Part shown: positions 18,101 through 36,302 of the stretch, piece by piece | Position numbering within the stretch: the stretch's first letter is position 1 | Layout: each line of letters opens with the position of its first letter | NCBI RefSeq assembly: GCF_039555755.1 | Contig: NZ_CP154631.1 | Location: forward strand, 3,534,001-3,598,000 | Length of the DNA stretch: 64,000 bases | From: Pseudomonas sediminis | GTDB lineage: Bacteria; Pseudomonadota; Gammaproteobacteria; Pseudomonadales; Pseudomonadaceae | Direction of reading: 5' to 3' | The notes under the pieces: model-generated | The model's input: only the letters and a program-made list of their open reading frames with translations | What the model was told of the DNA's origin: nothing | Databases searched by the model: none | Translations under genes and position numbers: made by a program

Positions 18101-19072
18101 ATGGCCGTGCAAGACCTGCTTTCCCAGGACGAGATCGATGCGCTGTTGCATGGCGTCGATGACGGCCTGGTGGAAACCGAGGACGCAGCGGAGCCGGGGA
18201 GCGTCAAACAGTACGACCTGACCAGTCAGGATCGTATCGTCCGTGGGCGCATGCCGACCCTGGAGATGATCAACGAGCGCTTTGCTCGTTATACCCGCAT
18301 CAGCATGTTCAACCTGTTGCGTCGCTCGGCTGACGTCGCCGTCGGTGGTGTGCAGGTGATGAAATTCGGCGAATACGTGCACTCGTTGTACGTGCCTACC
18401 AGCCTCAACCTGGTGAAGATGAAGCCGCTGCGCGGCACCGGTCTGTTCATTCTCGACGCCAAGCTGGTGTTCAAACTGGTGGACAACTTCTTCGGCGGCG
18501 ATGGGCGCCATGCCAAGATCGAAGGCCGTGAGTTCACGCCAACCGAACTGCGTGTCGTGCGTATGGTGCTGGATCAGGCGTTCGTCGACCTGCGTGAAGC
18601 CTGGCACGCCGTTATGGATATCAACTTCGAGTACGTCAACTCCGAGGTCAACCCGGCGCTGGCCAACATCGTCAGCCCCAGCGAAGTAGTGGTGGTGTCC
18701 ACCTTCCATATCGAGCTCGACGGCGGTGGTGGCGACCTGCACATCACCATGCCGTACTCGATGATCGAGCCGATCCGCGAAATGCTCGATGCCGGTTTCC
18801 AATCCGATGTCGACGATCAGGACGAGCGCTGGATCAAGGCCCTGCGCGAGGACATCCTCGATGTCAGCGTGCCGCTGGCCGCCACCGTCGCCCGCCGCCA
18901 GTTGAAGCTGCGTGACATCCTGCATATGCAGCCGGGTGATGTGATCCCCGTGGAATTGCCGGACAACGTGGTCATGCGCGCCAATGGCGTGCCGACCTTC
19001 AAGGTCAAGCTGGGAGCGCACAAGGGCAATCTGGCCCTGCAGGTGCTGGAACCAATCGAACGCCAACGCTGA
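18101..19072 (+). CDS. fliM: FliM, motor switch protein and CheY target
   Basis: Protein of 323 residues. The N-terminal CheY-binding peptide LSQDEIDALL is at residues 7-16; the middle CheC-like domain and the C-terminal SpoA domain (with RQLKLRDILHMQPGDVIPVEL) follow. FliM sits between FliG and FliN in the C ring; CheY-P binding at the N-terminal peptide starts reversal. It is followed by a 71-base gap before fliN. The same short motif recurs in FliN, CheZ and CheA in this window (see findings). Confidence 0.97.
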   Translation: MAVQDLLSQDEIDALLHGVDDGLVETEDAAEPGSVKQYDLTSQDRIVRGRMPTLEMINERFARYTRISMFNLLRRSADVAVGGVQVMKFGEYVHSLYVPTSLNLVKMKPLRGTGLFILDAKLVFKLVDNFFGGDGRHAKIEGREFTPTELRVVRMVLDQAFVDLREAWHAVMDINFEYVNSEVNPALANIVSPSEVVVVSTFHIELDGGGGDLHITMPYSMIEPIREMLDAGFQSDVDDQDERWIKALREDILDVSVPLAATVARRQLKLRDILHMQPGDVIPVELPDNVVMRANGVPTFKVKLGAHKGNLALQVLEPIERQR

Positions 19073-19143: not shown

Positions 19144-19620
19144 ATGGCAGACGAAGAAAACACCTCCCCCGAGGAACAGGCACTGGCCGATGAATGGGCC
19201 GCAGCGCTGGCCGAGGCAGGTGATGCCGATCAGGACGATATCGATGCCATGCTCGCAGGGCAGGGGGCTGCTCAGGCAGCGCCACCGGCCGCACCGCGTG
19301 CACCGATGGAAGAGTTCGGCAGCGCACCGCCTCCCGGCAATCTGCCGGTCAATCTGGATGGCCCCAATCTGGATGTGATCCTGGATATTCCAGTGTCCAT
19401 CTCCATGGAAGTGGGCAACACCGATATCACTATCCGTAATCTGCTGCAGCTCAATCAGGGCTCGGTGATCGAGCTGGATCGTCTGGCCGGTGAGCCGCTC
19501 GATGTGCTGGTCAACGGCACGTTGATCGCTCATGGCGAAGTGGTGGTGGTCAACGAGAAGTTCGGCATTCGCCTGACCGACGTGATCAGCCCCAGCGAAC
19601 GTATCAAGAAGCTGCGCTGA
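19144..19620 (+). CDS. fliN: FliN, motor switch protein
   Basis: Protein of 158 residues with a long acidic N-terminal arm and a C-terminal SpoA domain (about 75-155: VSISMEVGNTDITIRNLLQLNQGSVIELDRLAGEPLDVLVNG). The arm contains DQDDIDAML at 29-37, a short motif like the CheY-binding peptide of FliM. FliN forms the bottom of the C ring and docks FliH-FliI. The ATG at 19144 follows GAGGAA. It stops 2 bases before fliO. Confidence 0.95.
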   Translation: MADEENTSPEEQALADEWAAALAEAGDADQDDIDAMLAGQGAAQAAPPAAPRAPMEEFGSAPPPGNLPVNLDGPNLDVILDIPVSISMEVGNTDITIRNLLQLNQGSVIELDRLAGEPLDVLVNGTLIAHGEVVVVNEKFGIRLTDVISPSERIKKLR

Positions 19621-28365: not shown

Positions 28366-28740
28366 ATGAAAATCCTCATCGTTGACGATTTCTCGACGAT
28401 GCGACGGATCATCAAGAACCTCTTGCGGGACTTGGGTTTCACCAACACCGCAGAAGCCGATGACGGCACGTCGGCGCTGCCGATGCTGCAGAGCGGCAGC
28501 TTCGACTTTCTGGTGACCGACTGGAACATGCCCGGCATGACCGGTATCGACTTGCTGCGCGCCGTTCGCGCCGACGAGCGTCTCAAGCACCTGCCGGTGC
28601 TGATGGTGACCGCCGAAGCCAAGCGCGACCAGATCATCGAGGCGGCTCAGGCCGGCGTGAATGGCTACGTGGTCAAACCCTTCACCGCCCAGGTGCTGAA
28701 GGAAAAGATCGAGAAGATCTTCGAGCGAGTCAACGGCTGA
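28366..28740 (+). CDS. cheY: CheY, chemotaxis response regulator
   Basis: Single receiver domain of 124 residues: acidic pocket D7/D8, phosphoacceptor D52 in [14 protein letters not shown] switch (MVTAEA) and K in YVVKPFTA. Phosphorylated by CheA, it binds FliM and reverses the motor. The ATG at 28366 gives the conserved [10 protein letters not shown] start. However GGAGG at 28344-28348 is correctly spaced for a TTG at 28354, which would add four residues (MDKN); this longer form may be the real product. cheZ follows. Confidence 0.95.
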
Positions 28741-28759: not shown

Positions 28760-29548
28760 ATGGAACATGATGACTCCACGATGGGTGACCTCGAGTCGAC
28801 CCTGAAAAACAACGCCCGTGACCTGGTCGATAGCCTCGAACAAGGCAATTTCGGCGCCGCGGTGCAACTGATCAACGAACTCAACAAGGTCCGTGATCGC
28901 GGGCTCTATCACGAGGTCGGCAAGCTGACCCGTGAGCTGCACAACGCCATCGTCAACTTTCAGATCGACCCGCGCATGCCGCATGCGCAGGAGCTGTCGC
29001 AGATCGCCGATGCGACCGAACGCCTGAACTACGTCGTTACCCAGACCGAGAGGGCGGCTAACCGCACCATGGACCTGGTGGAGCAGAGCGCTCCGCTGGT
29101 CAATGACCTGAGCGATGAGGCGCAGAGCCTGAGCGCCGAATGGGGCCGTTTCATGCGTCGCGAGATGGGCGCCGAAGGGTTCCGCGAGCTGGCCAAGCGC
29201 GTCGAGCTGTTCCTGGCGCGCAGTGAGCGTGACGGCGCCAAACTGTCCAATCACCTCAACGACATTCTGCTGGCGCAGGACTATCAGGACCTCACCGGGC
29301 AGGTGATCAAGCGGGTCACCCAGCTGGTGACCGAGGTGGAAGGCAACCTGCTCAAGCTGATGCTGATGGCCAGCCAGGTCGACCGTTTTGCCGGCATTCA
29401 GCATGACCACGAAGCGTTGCGTGCCGAACAGGAAAAAATAAAAGAGCCATCGCGGGGTGAAGGTCCGCAGATTCATGCCGATAAGCGTGATGACGTTGCC
29501 TCCAGTCAGGACGATGTCGACGACCTGCTGTCCAGCCTAGGGTTCTAA
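28760..29548 (+). CDS. cheZ: CheZ, CheY-P phosphatase
   Basis: Protein of 262 residues forming a long helical hairpin; the catalytic Gln region is DILLAQDYQDLTGQVIKR (about 170-188). The C-terminal CheY-binding peptide SQDDVDDLLSSLGF closes the protein, closely like the E. coli CheZ tail. CheZ ends the tumble/reversal signal by speeding loss of phosphate from CheY. It is 12 bases upstream of cheA. Confidence 0.95.
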   Translation: MEHDDSTMGDLESTLKNNARDLVDSLEQGNFGAAVQLINELNKVRDRGLYHEVGKLTRELHNAIVNFQIDPRMPHAQELSQIADATERLNYVVTQTERAANRTMDLVEQSAPLVNDLSDEAQSLSAEWGRFMRREMGAEGFRELAKRVELFLARSERDGAKLSNHLNDILLAQDYQDLTGQVIKRVTQLVTEVEGNLLKLMLMASQVDRFAGIQHDHEALRAEQEKIKEPSRGEGPQIHADKRDDVASSQDDVDDLLSSLGF

Positions 29549-29560
29549 GGAGCACACAAT

Positions 29561-31813
29561 ATGAGCTTCGGCGCCGATGAAGAGATCCTCCAGGACTTCC
29601 TGGTAGAGGCCGGCGAGATTCTCGAACAGTTGTCCGAGCAGTTGGTCGAGCTGGAAAGCCGGCCGGACGACATGAACCTGCTCAACGCCATCTTTCGCGG
29701 TTTCCATACCGTCAAGGGCGGAGCGGGCTTCCTCCAGCTCAACGAGCTGGTGGAGTGCTGCCACATAGCCGAGAACGTGTTCGACATCCTGCGCAAGGGT
29801 GAGCGTCGCGTCGACTCGGAGCTGATGGACGTGGTGCTCGAGGCTCTTGATGCAGTCAACGGCATGTTCGGCGAGGTGCGCGAGCGCCGCGAGCCGACGC
29901 CTGCCACGCCGGAACTGCTGGCCGCGCTGGCGCGCCTGGCTGAACCGGCTGGTGCCGAGCCGGCGCCTGCGCCGGTCGTGGCAGCCGCGCCGGAACCCGA
30001 GCCGGAGCCTGAGCCGGTTGCGGCTGCTGCGGCATCCGGCGACATCACCGACAGCGAGTTCGAACAGCTGCTCGACGCCCTGGGCGATGCCCCGGCCGTG
30101 GAAGCGGCGGCGCCTGCCAGTGACGACATCACCGACGACGAGTTCGAGTCGCTGCTCGACCAGTTGCATGGCAAGGGGCAGTTCAGTGGCCCGGTCGAGA
30201 CGCCTGCCAGCACCGCCAGTGCTGCCGCACCGGCGCCGGCGCCTGCCAGTGACGACATCACCGACGATGAATTCGAGGCGTTGCTCGACCAGCTGCACGG
30301 CAAGGGGCAGTTCTCCGGCCCGGCCGAAACCGCCGCGCCAGCCGTCGCTGCCAGCGAACCGCCGGCGCCTGCCGGTGATGACATCACCGACGACGAGTTC
30401 GAGTCGCTGCTCGATCAGTTGCACGGCAAGGGCAAGTTCGTGCCGCCGAGTGAGCCGGCTGCTCCCGCTCCGGCAGCGAAACCGGCTGCACCTGTAGCCA
30501 AGCCCGCCGCAGCGGCCAAAGCTGCTGCACCTGCTGCACCTGCTGCGCCCGCCAAGCCGGCCGCTCCAGCCAAGGCCGAGCCCGCTGCTGGCCGCGCCGC
30601 AGCCGCGCCGGCACCTGCTGGTGACAAGGCACCGGCGGCGAGCGAAGCGGAAACCACCGTACGCGTCGACACCGCGCGCCTCGACGAGATCATGAACATG
30701 GTCGGCGAGCTGGTGCTGGTGCGTAACCGCCTGGTACGCCTGGGTCTCAACAGCGGCGATGAGGCGATGTCCAAGGCGGTGTCGAACCTCGACGTGGTCA
30801 CTGCGGACCTGCAGACCTCGGTGATGAAGACCCGCATGCAGCCGATCAAGAAGGTGTTCGGCCGCTTCCCGCGTCTGGTCCGCGATCTGGCGCGCAACCT
30901 GAAGAAAGAGATCAACCTCGAGCTGGTGGGCGAAGAGACCGACCTCGACAAGAACCTCGTCGAGGCCCTGGCCGACCCGCTGGTGCACTTGGTGCGCAAC
31001 GCCGTCGACCATGGCGTGGAAACGCCGGAGGAGCGCGAGAAGGCCGGCAAGGCCCGTGCCGGTCGTGTGGTGCTGTCCGCCGAGCAGGAAGGGGATCACA
31101 TCCTGCTGTCGATCACCGACGACGGCAAGGGCATGGATGCCGACGTGCTGCGCGCCAAGGCCGTGGAAAAGGGCCTGCTGGACAAGGACGCGGCGGATCG
31201 CCTGAACGAGTTCGAATGCTACAACCTGATCTTCGCCCCGGGCTTCTCGACCAAGACCGAGATTTCCGACGTGTCCGGCCGTGGTGTCGGCATGGATGTG
31301 GTCAAGACCAAGATCACCCAGCTCAACGGCACGGTGAACGTGTTCTCGCAGAAGGGTCAGGGCTCGAAGATCATCATCAAGGTGCCGCTGACCCTGGCGA
31401 TCATGCCCACGCTGATGGTGATGCTGGAAAACCAGGCATTCGCCTTCCCGCTGGTCAACGTCAACGAGATCTTCCACCTCGACCTGTCGCGCACCAACGT
31501 GGTCGATGGCCAGGAAGTGGTGATCGTGCGTGACAAGGCGCTGCCGCTGTTCTATCTCAAGCGTTGGCTGGTACCGCAGGCCTTCCAGGAGGAACAGCGC
31601 GAAGGTCACGTGGTGATCCTCACCGTGGGCAGCCAGCGCATCGGTTTTGTCGTCGATCAATTGGTGGGTCAGGAAGAAGTGGTAATCAAGCCACTGGGCA
31701 AGATGCTGCAGGGCACTCCGGGCATGTCCGGGGCGACCATCACCGGCGACGGTCGCATCGCGCTGATTCTCGACGTACCGAGCATGCTCAAGCGCTACGC
31801 TCGGCGTTTCTGA
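29561..31813 (+). CDS. cheA: CheA, chemotaxis histidine kinase with repeated short motifs in place of P2
   Basis: Protein of 750 residues. P1 Hpt domain (1-105) has H49 in FRGFHTVKGGAG. Residues about 110-365 are a Pro/Ala-rich, unstructured stretch with no folded P2 domain; it holds four copies of an ITDDEFExLLDxL motif starting at residues 161, 188, 231 and 273. P3 dimerisation (TARLDEIMNMVGELVLVRNRL), P4 kinase (VRNAVDHGVE, DDGKGMD, GRGVGMDVVK) and P5 CheW-like domain follow. CheA phosphorylates CheY and CheB under receptor control. The start follows AAGGAG. Confidence 0.96.
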   Translation: MSFGADEEILQDFLVEAGEILEQLSEQLVELESRPDDMNLLNAIFRGFHTVKGGAGFLQLNELVECCHIAENVFDILRKGERRVDSELMDVVLEALDAVNGMFGEVRERREPTPATPELLAALARLAEPAGAEPAPAPVVAAAPEPEPEPEPVAAAAASGDITDSEFEQLLDALGDAPAVEAAAPASDDITDDEFESLLDQLHGKGQFSGPVETPASTASAAAPAPAPASDDITDDEFEALLDQLHGKGQFSGPAETAAPAVAASEPPAPAGDDITDDEFESLLDQLHGKGKFVPPSEPAAPAPAAKPAAPVAKPAAAAKAAAPAAPAAPAKPAAPAKAEPAAGRAAAAPAPAGDKAPAASEAETTVRVDTARLDEIMNMVGELVLVRNRLVRLGLNSGDEAMSKAVSNLDVVTADLQTSVMKTRMQPIKKVFGRFPRLVRDLARNLKKEINLELVGEETDLDKNLVEALADPLVHLVRNAVDHGVETPEEREKAGKARAGRVVLSAEQEGDHILLSITDDGKGMDADVLRAKAVEKGLLDKDAADRLNEFECYNLIFAPGFSTKTEISDVSGRGVGMDVVKTKITQLNGTVNVFSQKGQGSKIIIKVPLTLAIMPTLMVMLENQAFAFPLVNVNEIFHLDLSRTNVVDGQEVVIVRDKALPLFYLKRWLVPQAFQEEQREGHVVILTVGSQRIGFVVDQLVGQEEVVIKPLGKMLQGTPGMSGATITGDGRIALILDVPSMLKRYARRF

Positions 31814-34653: not shown

Positions 34654-35442
34654 ATGAAAGTCTGGGCAGTAGCCAATCAGAAGGGCGGGGTCGGCAAGAC
34701 CACCACCTCCATCGCGCTGGCAGGCCTGTTGGCCGATGCCGGCAAGCGCGTGATCGTCGTCGATCTCGACCCGCATGGGTCGATGACCAGCTATTTCGGT
34801 CATGATCCCGATACGCTGGAGCACAGTTGCTTCGATCTGTTCCTGCATCAGGGCAATGTGCCGCAGGGCCTGCCCAAGCAACTGCTGCACAGCACCAGTC
34901 ACGAGAATATCTCCCTGTTGCCGTCGAGCACCGCGCTGGCCACGCTCGAGCGCCAGTCGCCAGGGCAGAATGGCTTGGGGCTGGTGATCGCCAAGAGCCT
35001 GGCGCAGCTGTGGGAGGATTTCGATCACGCCATCATCGACAGCCCGCCCTTGCTCGGCGTACTGATGGTCAACGCCCTGGCGGCGAGCCAGCAACTGGCG
35101 ATACCGGTGCAGACTGAATTCCTCGCAGTGAAAGGCCTGGAGCGCATGATCACCACGCTGGCGATGATCAATCGCTCGCGTAAGCAGGCTTTGCCTTACA
35201 CCATCGTGCCGACGCTGTTCGACCGCCGCACCCAGGCGTCCATGAGTACGCTGCGGCTACTGCGCAACACTTACCCTGAGCACCTGTGGCCGGCTTACAT
35301 TCCGGTCGACACGCGCTTGCGTGATGCCAGCCGGGCTGGGCGCACGCCTTCGCAGTTCGATGCGAACAGCCGTGGCGTCATCGCCTACCGAGCGCTGCTC
35401 AAGCATCTGTTGAGTCATCAGCCGGCGGCGCAGGTGGCTTGA
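34654..35442 (+). CDS. parC: ParC, ParA-like ATPase for chemotaxis array positioning
   Basis: Protein of 262 residues with Walker A KGGVGKTTT at 10-18 and a VVDLDPHGSMTSYFG switch; family ParA/MinD. In vibrios and pseudomonads the ParC/ParP pair, coded beside cheA and cheW, brings signalling arrays to the flagellated pole and passes them to daughter cells. Its place between motD and parP supports this over plasmid partition. GGGAGGATGAGAGAAG lies just ahead of the ATG. Confidence 0.88.
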   Translation: MKVWAVANQKGGVGKTTTSIALAGLLADAGKRVIVVDLDPHGSMTSYFGHDPDTLEHSCFDLFLHQGNVPQGLPKQLLHSTSHENISLLPSSTALATLERQSPGQNGLGLVIAKSLAQLWEDFDHAIIDSPPLLGVLMVNALAASQQLAIPVQTEFLAVKGLERMITTLAMINRSRKQALPYTIVPTLFDRRTQASMSTLRLLRNTYPEHLWPAYIPVDTRLRDASRAGRTPSQFDANSRGVIAYRALLKHLLSHQPAAQVA

Positions 35443-35528: not shown

Positions 35529-36302
35529 ATGAGTCGTAACCTCGCCACCGCTACGCGTTCCCAGCTGGCTCTGCAGTCCTACCTCGATGGGCTGCTGCAG
35601 GAAGCTGCCGCCGAACTGGAGATGTCCGTCAGTCTGGACGAGTTCGAGGCCGCGGTGCTCGAGGAGCAGGTGCGCGATGCACGCCTGGTCGAGCCGGTCG
35701 CATTGGCCGTTGCGCCGGTGGAGTTGCTTGCGCCGGTGCAGGCGCCGGTGATCGAAGAGGCTCCGCCGGAAGTTGCCATCCTTGCCGAGCTGGCGCCGCA
35801 ACCGGCTGCCTTGCTGGCCGATGGTCGTCCGACCTGGGCCGAGGAGCCCTTCGAGTGCCTGTTGTTCGACGTGGCCGGGTTGACCCTGGCCGTGCCGCTG
35901 ATTTGCCTGGGCTCGATCTATCCGCTCGAAGGACAGGAACTGACGCCGCTGTTTGGTCAGCCGGATTGGTTTCTTGGCATCCTGCCGAGCCAGGCCGGTA
36001 ACCTGAAAGTACTGGATACAGCCCGTTGGGTGATGCCAGACCGTTATCGCGAGGACTTCCGCGAAGGCCTTCAATACGTGATTTCCGTGCAGGGCTACGA
36101 GTGGGGGTTGGCGGTGCATCAGGTCAGCCGCTCGATTCGCCTGGACCCGAGCGAGGTCAAGTGGCGCAGCCAGCGTACCCAGCGGCCCTGGCTGGCCGGT
36201 ACGGTGATCGAGCACATGTGCGCGCTGCTCGATGTGGCTGCGTTGGCCGAGCTGATCGCCAGCGGTGCGGCGAAACGCCTGAATGGCGGAAAACTGCATT
36301 GA
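35529..36302 (+). CDS. parP: ParP, CheW-domain protein linking arrays to ParC
   Basis: Protein of 257 residues: a Val/Ala/Glu/Pro-rich N-terminal arm (1-105) and a CheW-like domain (about 110-250, FECLLFDVAGLTLAVPLICLGSIYPLEG). ParP joins ParC to CheA through an array integration surface in the CheW fold, keeping arrays at the pole. It follows parC, with an FliA-type promoter in between, and lies ahead of cheW. Confidence 0.87.
   Translation: MSRNLATATRSQLALQSYLDGLLQEAAAELEMSVSLDEFEAAVLEEQVRDARLVEPVALAVAPVELLAPVQAPVIEEAPPEVAILAELAPQPAALLADGRPTWAEEPFECLLFDVAGLTLAVPLICLGSIYPLEGQELTPLFGQPDWFLGILPSQAGNLKVLDTARWVMPDRYREDFREGLQYVISVQGYEWGLAVHQVSRSIRLDPSEVKWRSQRTQRPWLAGTVIEHMCALLDVAALAELIASGAAKRLNGGKLH

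Follow-up and report, generated by a model that had tools for sequence, protein, structure and literature searches.

Four tandem repeats lie between P1 and P3 in the CheA of the window

The DNA analysed here, referred to as the window, is a 64,000-nt stretch of a 4.6-Mb Pseudomonas chromosome. It contains a cheY-cheZ-cheA-cheB operon with parC, parP and cheW nearby. We use F6 as the presumed class name for the CheA of this operon type, an assignment made from gene order and not with the classifier. All window coordinates given below are on the + strand. The cheA gene (29561–31813) encodes a protein of 750 residues for which the open reading frame, the Pfam matches and the lack of P2 throughout its class indicate a P1-linker-P3-P4-P5 arrangement. 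A Pfam search found Hpt (P1, PF01627, residues 8–99, 29582–29857), H-kinase_dim (P3, PF02895, residues 365–424, 30653–30832), HATPase_c and CheW domains. No match to a P2 or CheY-binding domain, a family that we take to be PF07194, was obtained for this protein with Pfam.

The stretch from P1 to P3 is 265 residues long and contains four copies of the motif DITD[DS]EFExLLDxL, which start at residues 161, 189, 232 and 274. Repeat 1 (DITDSEFEQLLDAL, residues 161–174, 30041–30082) lacks HGKG and is followed by GDAP. Repeat 2 (DITDDEFESLLDQL, residues 189–206 with its tail, 30125–30178), repeat 3 (DITDDEFEALLDQL, residues 232–249, 30254–30307) and repeat 4 (DITDDEFESLLDQL again, residues 274–291, 30380–30433) all run into HGKG. 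An Ala/Pro/Lys-rich tether (30434–30652) connects repeat 4 to P3. The translation bears out what the sequence-only reading had claimed, namely four DITDDEFExLLDxL copies between P1 and P3, three of them with HGKG. In the DNA, the repeats appear as four 57-nt copies spaced by 84, 129 and 126 nt. Repeats 2 to 4 each sit inside a 129-nt unit; compared with the first unit, the next two show 79% and 71% identity, and a shorter DNA copy precedes all three.

Among the matches listed, the closest named CheA is that of Pseudomonas khazarica (99%). The only other H-kinase_dim match of this genome (C1:2212338–2212529, locus L002) is located inside a ChpA-like open frame of 2443 residues.

The repeats mark a class of CheA

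H-kinase_dim matches were listed in 56 genomes of the order and 184 genomes of the taxonomic class. Among those with a P3-P5 core near that of the window CheA (more than 420 bits), a subset of 73 CheAs from gammaproteobacterial genomes, hereafter the class, was selected on the strength of the match and the length of the frame, blind to the repeats. CheZ is present in the fetched stretch at 71 of the 73 loci. A repeat profile detected at least one copy in every one of the 73 proteins at thresholds of 8, 12 and 20. At threshold 8, the 206 sites were distributed as one copy in 4 CheAs, two in 17, three in 40 and four in 12; at threshold 12 (202 sites), the corresponding numbers were 4, 20, 38 and 11. 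With the same profile, no repeat was found in 45 CheAs of other types, nor in 67 further non-class CheAs (27 new loci from a phylum search and 40 places picked outside the class). Three or four copies are also present in each of ten more class CheAs that were read separately and do not enter the figures above. Three copies were observed in the CheA of locus L299, whose best named match is the CheA of Vibrio kanaloae (97%), and four at all 80 loci kept from at least 585 relatives (Pseudomonas, Stutzerimonas and MAGs), a biased set in that two of its six search patterns were the repeat itself. These data show that the repeats mark a class of CheA and are not special to the window CheA. The view that they are an oddity of Pseudomonas was discarded on the strength of the 73 blind-picked CheAs.

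Shuffling each of the 73 class linkers 20 times gave best profile scores whose 99th percentile was 3.5 and which reached 11.3 at most. The lowest-scoring sites accepted at threshold 8 could thus be due to chance; 95% of the 198 copies behind the repeat profile score at least 29. A relaxed pattern accepting Ile, Leu, Val, Met or Phe matched 71 of the 73 class CheAs versus 0.04 expected from shuffles. It matched none of the 45 other CheAs (0.18 expected) and none of the 67 further ones (0.24 expected from shuffles). No general substitution of P2 by FliM-like peptides was thus seen among those 67 proteins, counted whatever their P2 content.

An alignment was built from the window CheA and 64 of the 73 class CheAs; all 65 possess the Hpt, dimerisation, HATPase_c and CheW domains of a CheA histidine kinase. 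Between P1 and P3, only repeat 4 has invariant columns, namely E279, F280 and L284. Near-invariant columns are found in repeats 3 and 4 and in a short segment after P1, several of them falling in repeat 3. When the window linker was aligned with 30 others, conservation was again seen in repeats 3 and 4, and in addition at a Leu beside P1 and at a Pro of the tether. In the class linkers, the median distance between copies is 42 residues, and the 13-residue repeat core has a mean net charge of -5. These linkers are rich in Ala (19%), Glu and Pro (11%), and Trp and Cys both stand at 0.0%. Phe is found at 205 of the 206 repeat sites, a figure that is to some extent predetermined, as the copies used to train the profile came from a Phe-requiring pattern. 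The shuffle scores and the conserved columns rule out chance or low complexity as the origin of the repeats.

These alignments also bear on the suggestion that the repeats are SHOCT-like self-association helices, or mere spacers lengthening the tether. Pfam SHOCT (PF09851) does match 44 of the 65 aligned members at E≤0.01, including the window CheA, where the match is above the Pfam cut-off. However, only profile positions 11–26 of 28, about half of the profile, are matched in the window CheA, and invariant residues are unexpected in spacers, so we regard this explanation as very improbable. SHOCT identity as such is ruled out by the half-profile match, which falls short of full length, and the SHOCT call on CheA repeats is probably a mislabel. 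Among the 25 NCBIfam families shown for CheA, none covers the repeats, with the exception of the best stretch of CheA_Halo, which starts at residue 269.

The P2 domain is missing from the class

A P2-linker profile matched 41 of 45 other CheA linkers versus none of the 73 class linkers (E≤0.001); the 23 control linkers from which it was built are all among the 41. The four linkers that it missed are those of L002 (ChpA-like) and L128 and the short ones of L084 and L096, and the same four were left out of the control-linker set used for the comparison of halves described below. Pfam P2 models matched 0 of 65 class members but just 2 of 44 controls, and are too weak to decide. Searched against the PDB, the control-linker profile retrieved six sequences at E values of 1 or less; each is named CheA, and 6s1k ranks first (4.8e-5). 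The chains 1fwp, 1ffs, 1a0o and 1eay, which we take to be P2 structures, were matched at E values of 0.007–0.16. A profile of 31 class linkers retrieved from the PDB a single unrelated chain (E 0.63) and no CheA, and the window linker alone gave no PDB match. In profile-profile comparisons, halves of the control-linker set matched each other at 100%, versus 1.2% for class against control linkers (0.2 and 0.5% in another run); E. coli P2 matched the control linkers weakly by hhalign (probability 5.9%, P 0.0064).

The absence of P2 proposed by the sequence-only reading is thus well supported: the P2 profile, the profile-profile comparison and the PDB searches, in which only the controls matched CheA, together rule out a P2 hidden elsewhere in the linker. 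It is likewise well supported, as judged from these sequence comparisons, that class CheAs are not classical five-domain kinases bearing P2. P2 (PF09078) and the repeats both sit between P1 and P3 and have a presumed job in CheY docking, but P2 is a folded domain, unlike the short tandem peptides, which have no P2 profile match. The other-type CheAs of L084 and L096, with linkers of 140 and 139 residues, have neither a P2-profile match nor repeats. Some CheAs outside the class may therefore lack both, which speaks against the necessity of a CheY dock.

About 52% of CheAs are without P2 according to a domain survey whose available text describes the loss of P2 as well as unstructured linkers and makes no mention of such peptides (PMC10542144). 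In the accessible parts of two other papers, the CheA of P. putida is treated as having a CheY-binding P2 domain, against a P2-less reading (PMC11978298), and the ParP-binding region called LID is placed between P2 and P3 of V. cholerae CheA (PMC7534058). No paper on CheA repeats of this kind appears among the open-licence papers that the searches listed.

The repeats resemble the CheY-binding peptide of FliM

Three further peptides of the window were found where the sequence-only reading had located them: LSQDEIDALL in FliM (residues 7–16, 18119–18148) and SQDDVDDLLSSLGF at the C-terminus of CheZ (29504–29545), both of the CheY-binding type, and the FliM-like DQDDIDAML in FliN (residues 29–37, 19228–19254). 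The 328 ORFs of the window were scanned with a CheA-repeat profile built from repeats of other genomes, in which the Phe column had been pooled beforehand, by choice, to FILVM. The N-terminus of FliM was the top non-CheA match (18.5, the next being 9.5), and none of 9810 shuffled ORFs equalled its score. The FliN and CheZ peptides were in the top ten, yet their scores were reached by 90 and 112 of the 9810 shuffles. The proposed resemblance to all three peptides consequently stands for FliM, and is within noise for CheZ and FliN. With one hydrophobic column pooled, the CheA repeats conform to the FliM-type motif and carry Phe at the Ile/Val position.

Of 32 genomes searched, 31 yielded FliM, and its N-terminus reads [LI]L[ST]Q[DE]E[IV]DALL at 28 of 30 loci, a wrong frame having been taken at the other two. 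CheZ tails (n=57) mostly read QD[DE]VD[DE]LLSSLGF. A codon pattern approximating [ST]Q[DE][DE][IV][DE]xLL has two matches in the 4.6-Mb genome, one in FliM and one in CheZ, and its backward control has none. The FliM peptide and the CheA repeat have in common the N-cap, the acidic residues and the hydrophobic-x-x-L-L spacing. The CheA repeat differs by its Phe for Ile, its DxL extension, its HGxG tail, its several copies and its location in a kinase and not in the motor. The CheZ tail shares the LLxxL ending, but has Val for Phe and is a single C-terminal copy. Since Phe in the CheA repeats replaces the Ile/Val of FliM and the Val of CheZ, the partner or the affinity may differ. The FliN peptide lies near the N-terminus and could provide the switch complex with a second site for CheY.

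The presumed ligand is encoded by cheY (28366–28740, starting at an inner ATG), as judged from the ORF and from a comparison of its pocket with that of E. coli CheY. FliM, CheZ and P2 are all taken to use the α4-β5-α5 face of CheY. The positions compared, which we take to form the pocket, were 90, 91, 92, 95, 99, 103, 106, 111, 115, 116, 119 and 122. I95, A99, Y106, F111, L116 and K119 are as in E. coli in all 58 proteins (57 class CheYs and that of the window), and K91 and K122 in 57 and 56 of them. Differences from E. coli are found at position 92, mostly Arg, and at position 103, Val in 57 proteins; positions 90 and 115 vary. The EIDALL motif of FliM is described as the binding site for CheY-P in the text available from PMC9126983, and the title of a reference cited in PMC3774744 states that the surfaces of CheY recognized by CheA, FliM and CheZ overlap.

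A different role of the repeats has to be weighed here: they might serve as a sink or in feedback, by binding CheY-P or a receiver domain (that of CheB or CheV), and would then not dock the substrate. The preference of FliM-type peptides for phosphorylated CheY fits a substrate dock poorly, unless it is altered by the Phe. Moreover, P2 is said in the available text of PMC10542144 to bind CheB besides CheY. Against this stands the lack of CheB in the fetched stretch at L160 and L161, where the CheAs have one strong copy each, although CheB could lie elsewhere in these genomes. We consider such a sink or feedback role improbable.

The repeats are kept in genomes without a detected ParP

The window also encodes a putative ParA-type ATPase with an N-terminal KGGVGKTT nucleotide-binding motif (parC, 34654–35442, identified as an ORF) and a protein with a CheW-like C-terminal domain (PF01584; parP, 35529–36302), a candidate rival ligand for the repeats. 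Both have relatives at other loci, and their names are carried over by us from the Vibrio system. In the N-terminal part of ParP, LDEFEAAVLEEQ is reminiscent of the CheA repeat. ParC- and ParP-like genes are present in the window Pseudomonas and also at loci L307 and L003-L006, in contrast to a statement in the available part of PMC12410967 that P. aeruginosa has no related ParC/ParP genes.

In Vibrio, ParP binds the LID of CheA (PMC7534058, PMC5706961), a region described in the accessible text as lying ahead of P3 and as occurring solely in CheAs of systems with ParC/ParP (PMC5706961). The repeats might therefore be the LID, binding the CheW-like domain of ParP and holding arrays at the pole, and have nothing to do with CheY. 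Several observations are in line with this: ParP and ParC are both in the window, little besides the repeats is conserved in the class linkers, and the LID, like the repeats, precedes P3 in CheAs encoded by operons of this type, the Vibrio CheA of L299 having three copies.

The profile search for ParP covered 24 genomes, of which 20 were selected for the lack of a clear ParP at the locus and 4 served as positive controls. Twelve of the 24 gave a match of at least 57 bits. ParP was not detected in nine genomes carrying eight family labels (G009, G226, G106, G191, G056, G193, G062, G149 and G078), in which profile matches were no better than those of CheW (32–41 bits) and no ParP was seen at the locus. 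G200, G196 and G175 were left out of this set since they have an ORF near ParC that is possibly a diverged ParP, a kind of gene that the profile can miss. At L160, L161, L180 and L192, ParC is directly followed by CheW with no ParP between them, and L147 has a weak ParC-like frame ahead of CheW. Neither ParC nor ParP was seen at L178 and L183, and the ParC trace at L179 is a single 27-bit match upstream of cheY. L194 is truncated where its contig ends, so that its ParP absence comes from the genome search only. At L160 and L161, CheA directly precedes ParC and CheW, and the one strong repeat has no HGxG.

All nine ParP-less genomes keep the repeats, with 1–4 copies and in each case at least one copy scoring at least 29. 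HGxG is kept in 7 of the 9 loci versus 35 of 38 loci with ParP. The mean number of copies without versus with ParP was 2.22 versus 2.89 at threshold 8 (p=0.018), 2.0 versus 2.84 at threshold 12 (p=0.001) and 2.0 versus 2.74 at threshold 20 (p=0.005), by Mann-Whitney tests that ignore kinship. Retention of the repeats in all nine genomes indicates that ParP is not their sole partner, and the lower copy number points to a role of ParP for some copies. ParP binding, which the sequence-only reading had offered as an alternative, thus fails as the only function and survives as a possible function of some copies. Unlike the LID as described, the repeats are not restricted to systems with ParC/ParP, even if some of the nine genomes do have ParC. 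The likeness of the repeats to a CheY ligand, FliM, and the absence of P2 from the class kinases also argue against a role limited to ParP, which we consider unlikely. The LID may well include one or more of the repeats.

A putative peptide dock for CheY

CheY docking remains the reading that we prefer and that we hold to be fairly probable from the sequences compared: the tandem peptides would replace P2 as docks for CheY in a disordered tether between P1 and P3. Each repeat, once bound, would form an acidic amphipathic helix, predicted to have a T/S N-cap, an F-L-L-L stripe at i, i+3, i+4 and i+7 and a Gly-rich end. The repeats would take the place of the folded P2 and bind the basic α4-β5-α5 face of CheY, raising its local concentration beside the phosphorylated histidine of P1 and presumably speeding phosphotransfer, with several copies adding avidity. 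Where ParP exists, one or more copies might also serve as its dock. A broader proposal, which we advance with considerable doubt, is that the whole kinase class, including Pseudomonas and Vibrio, swapped P2 for FliM-like peptides that double as the ParP-binding LID, in which case CheY docking and pole tethering would compete for one set of sites.

The domain survey of CheAs offers no substitute for P2 in its available text (PMC10542144). Should the repeats be docks for CheY, many gammaproteobacteria would rely in their main kinases on peptide avidity and not on a domain, and one type of peptide would be common to the kinase, the phosphatase and the motor. The naming of a P2 in Vibrio or Pseudomonas CheA, as it appears in the accessible parts of PMC7534058 and PMC11978298, would then need revision. 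The repeats also open a direct way to ask what the LID is.
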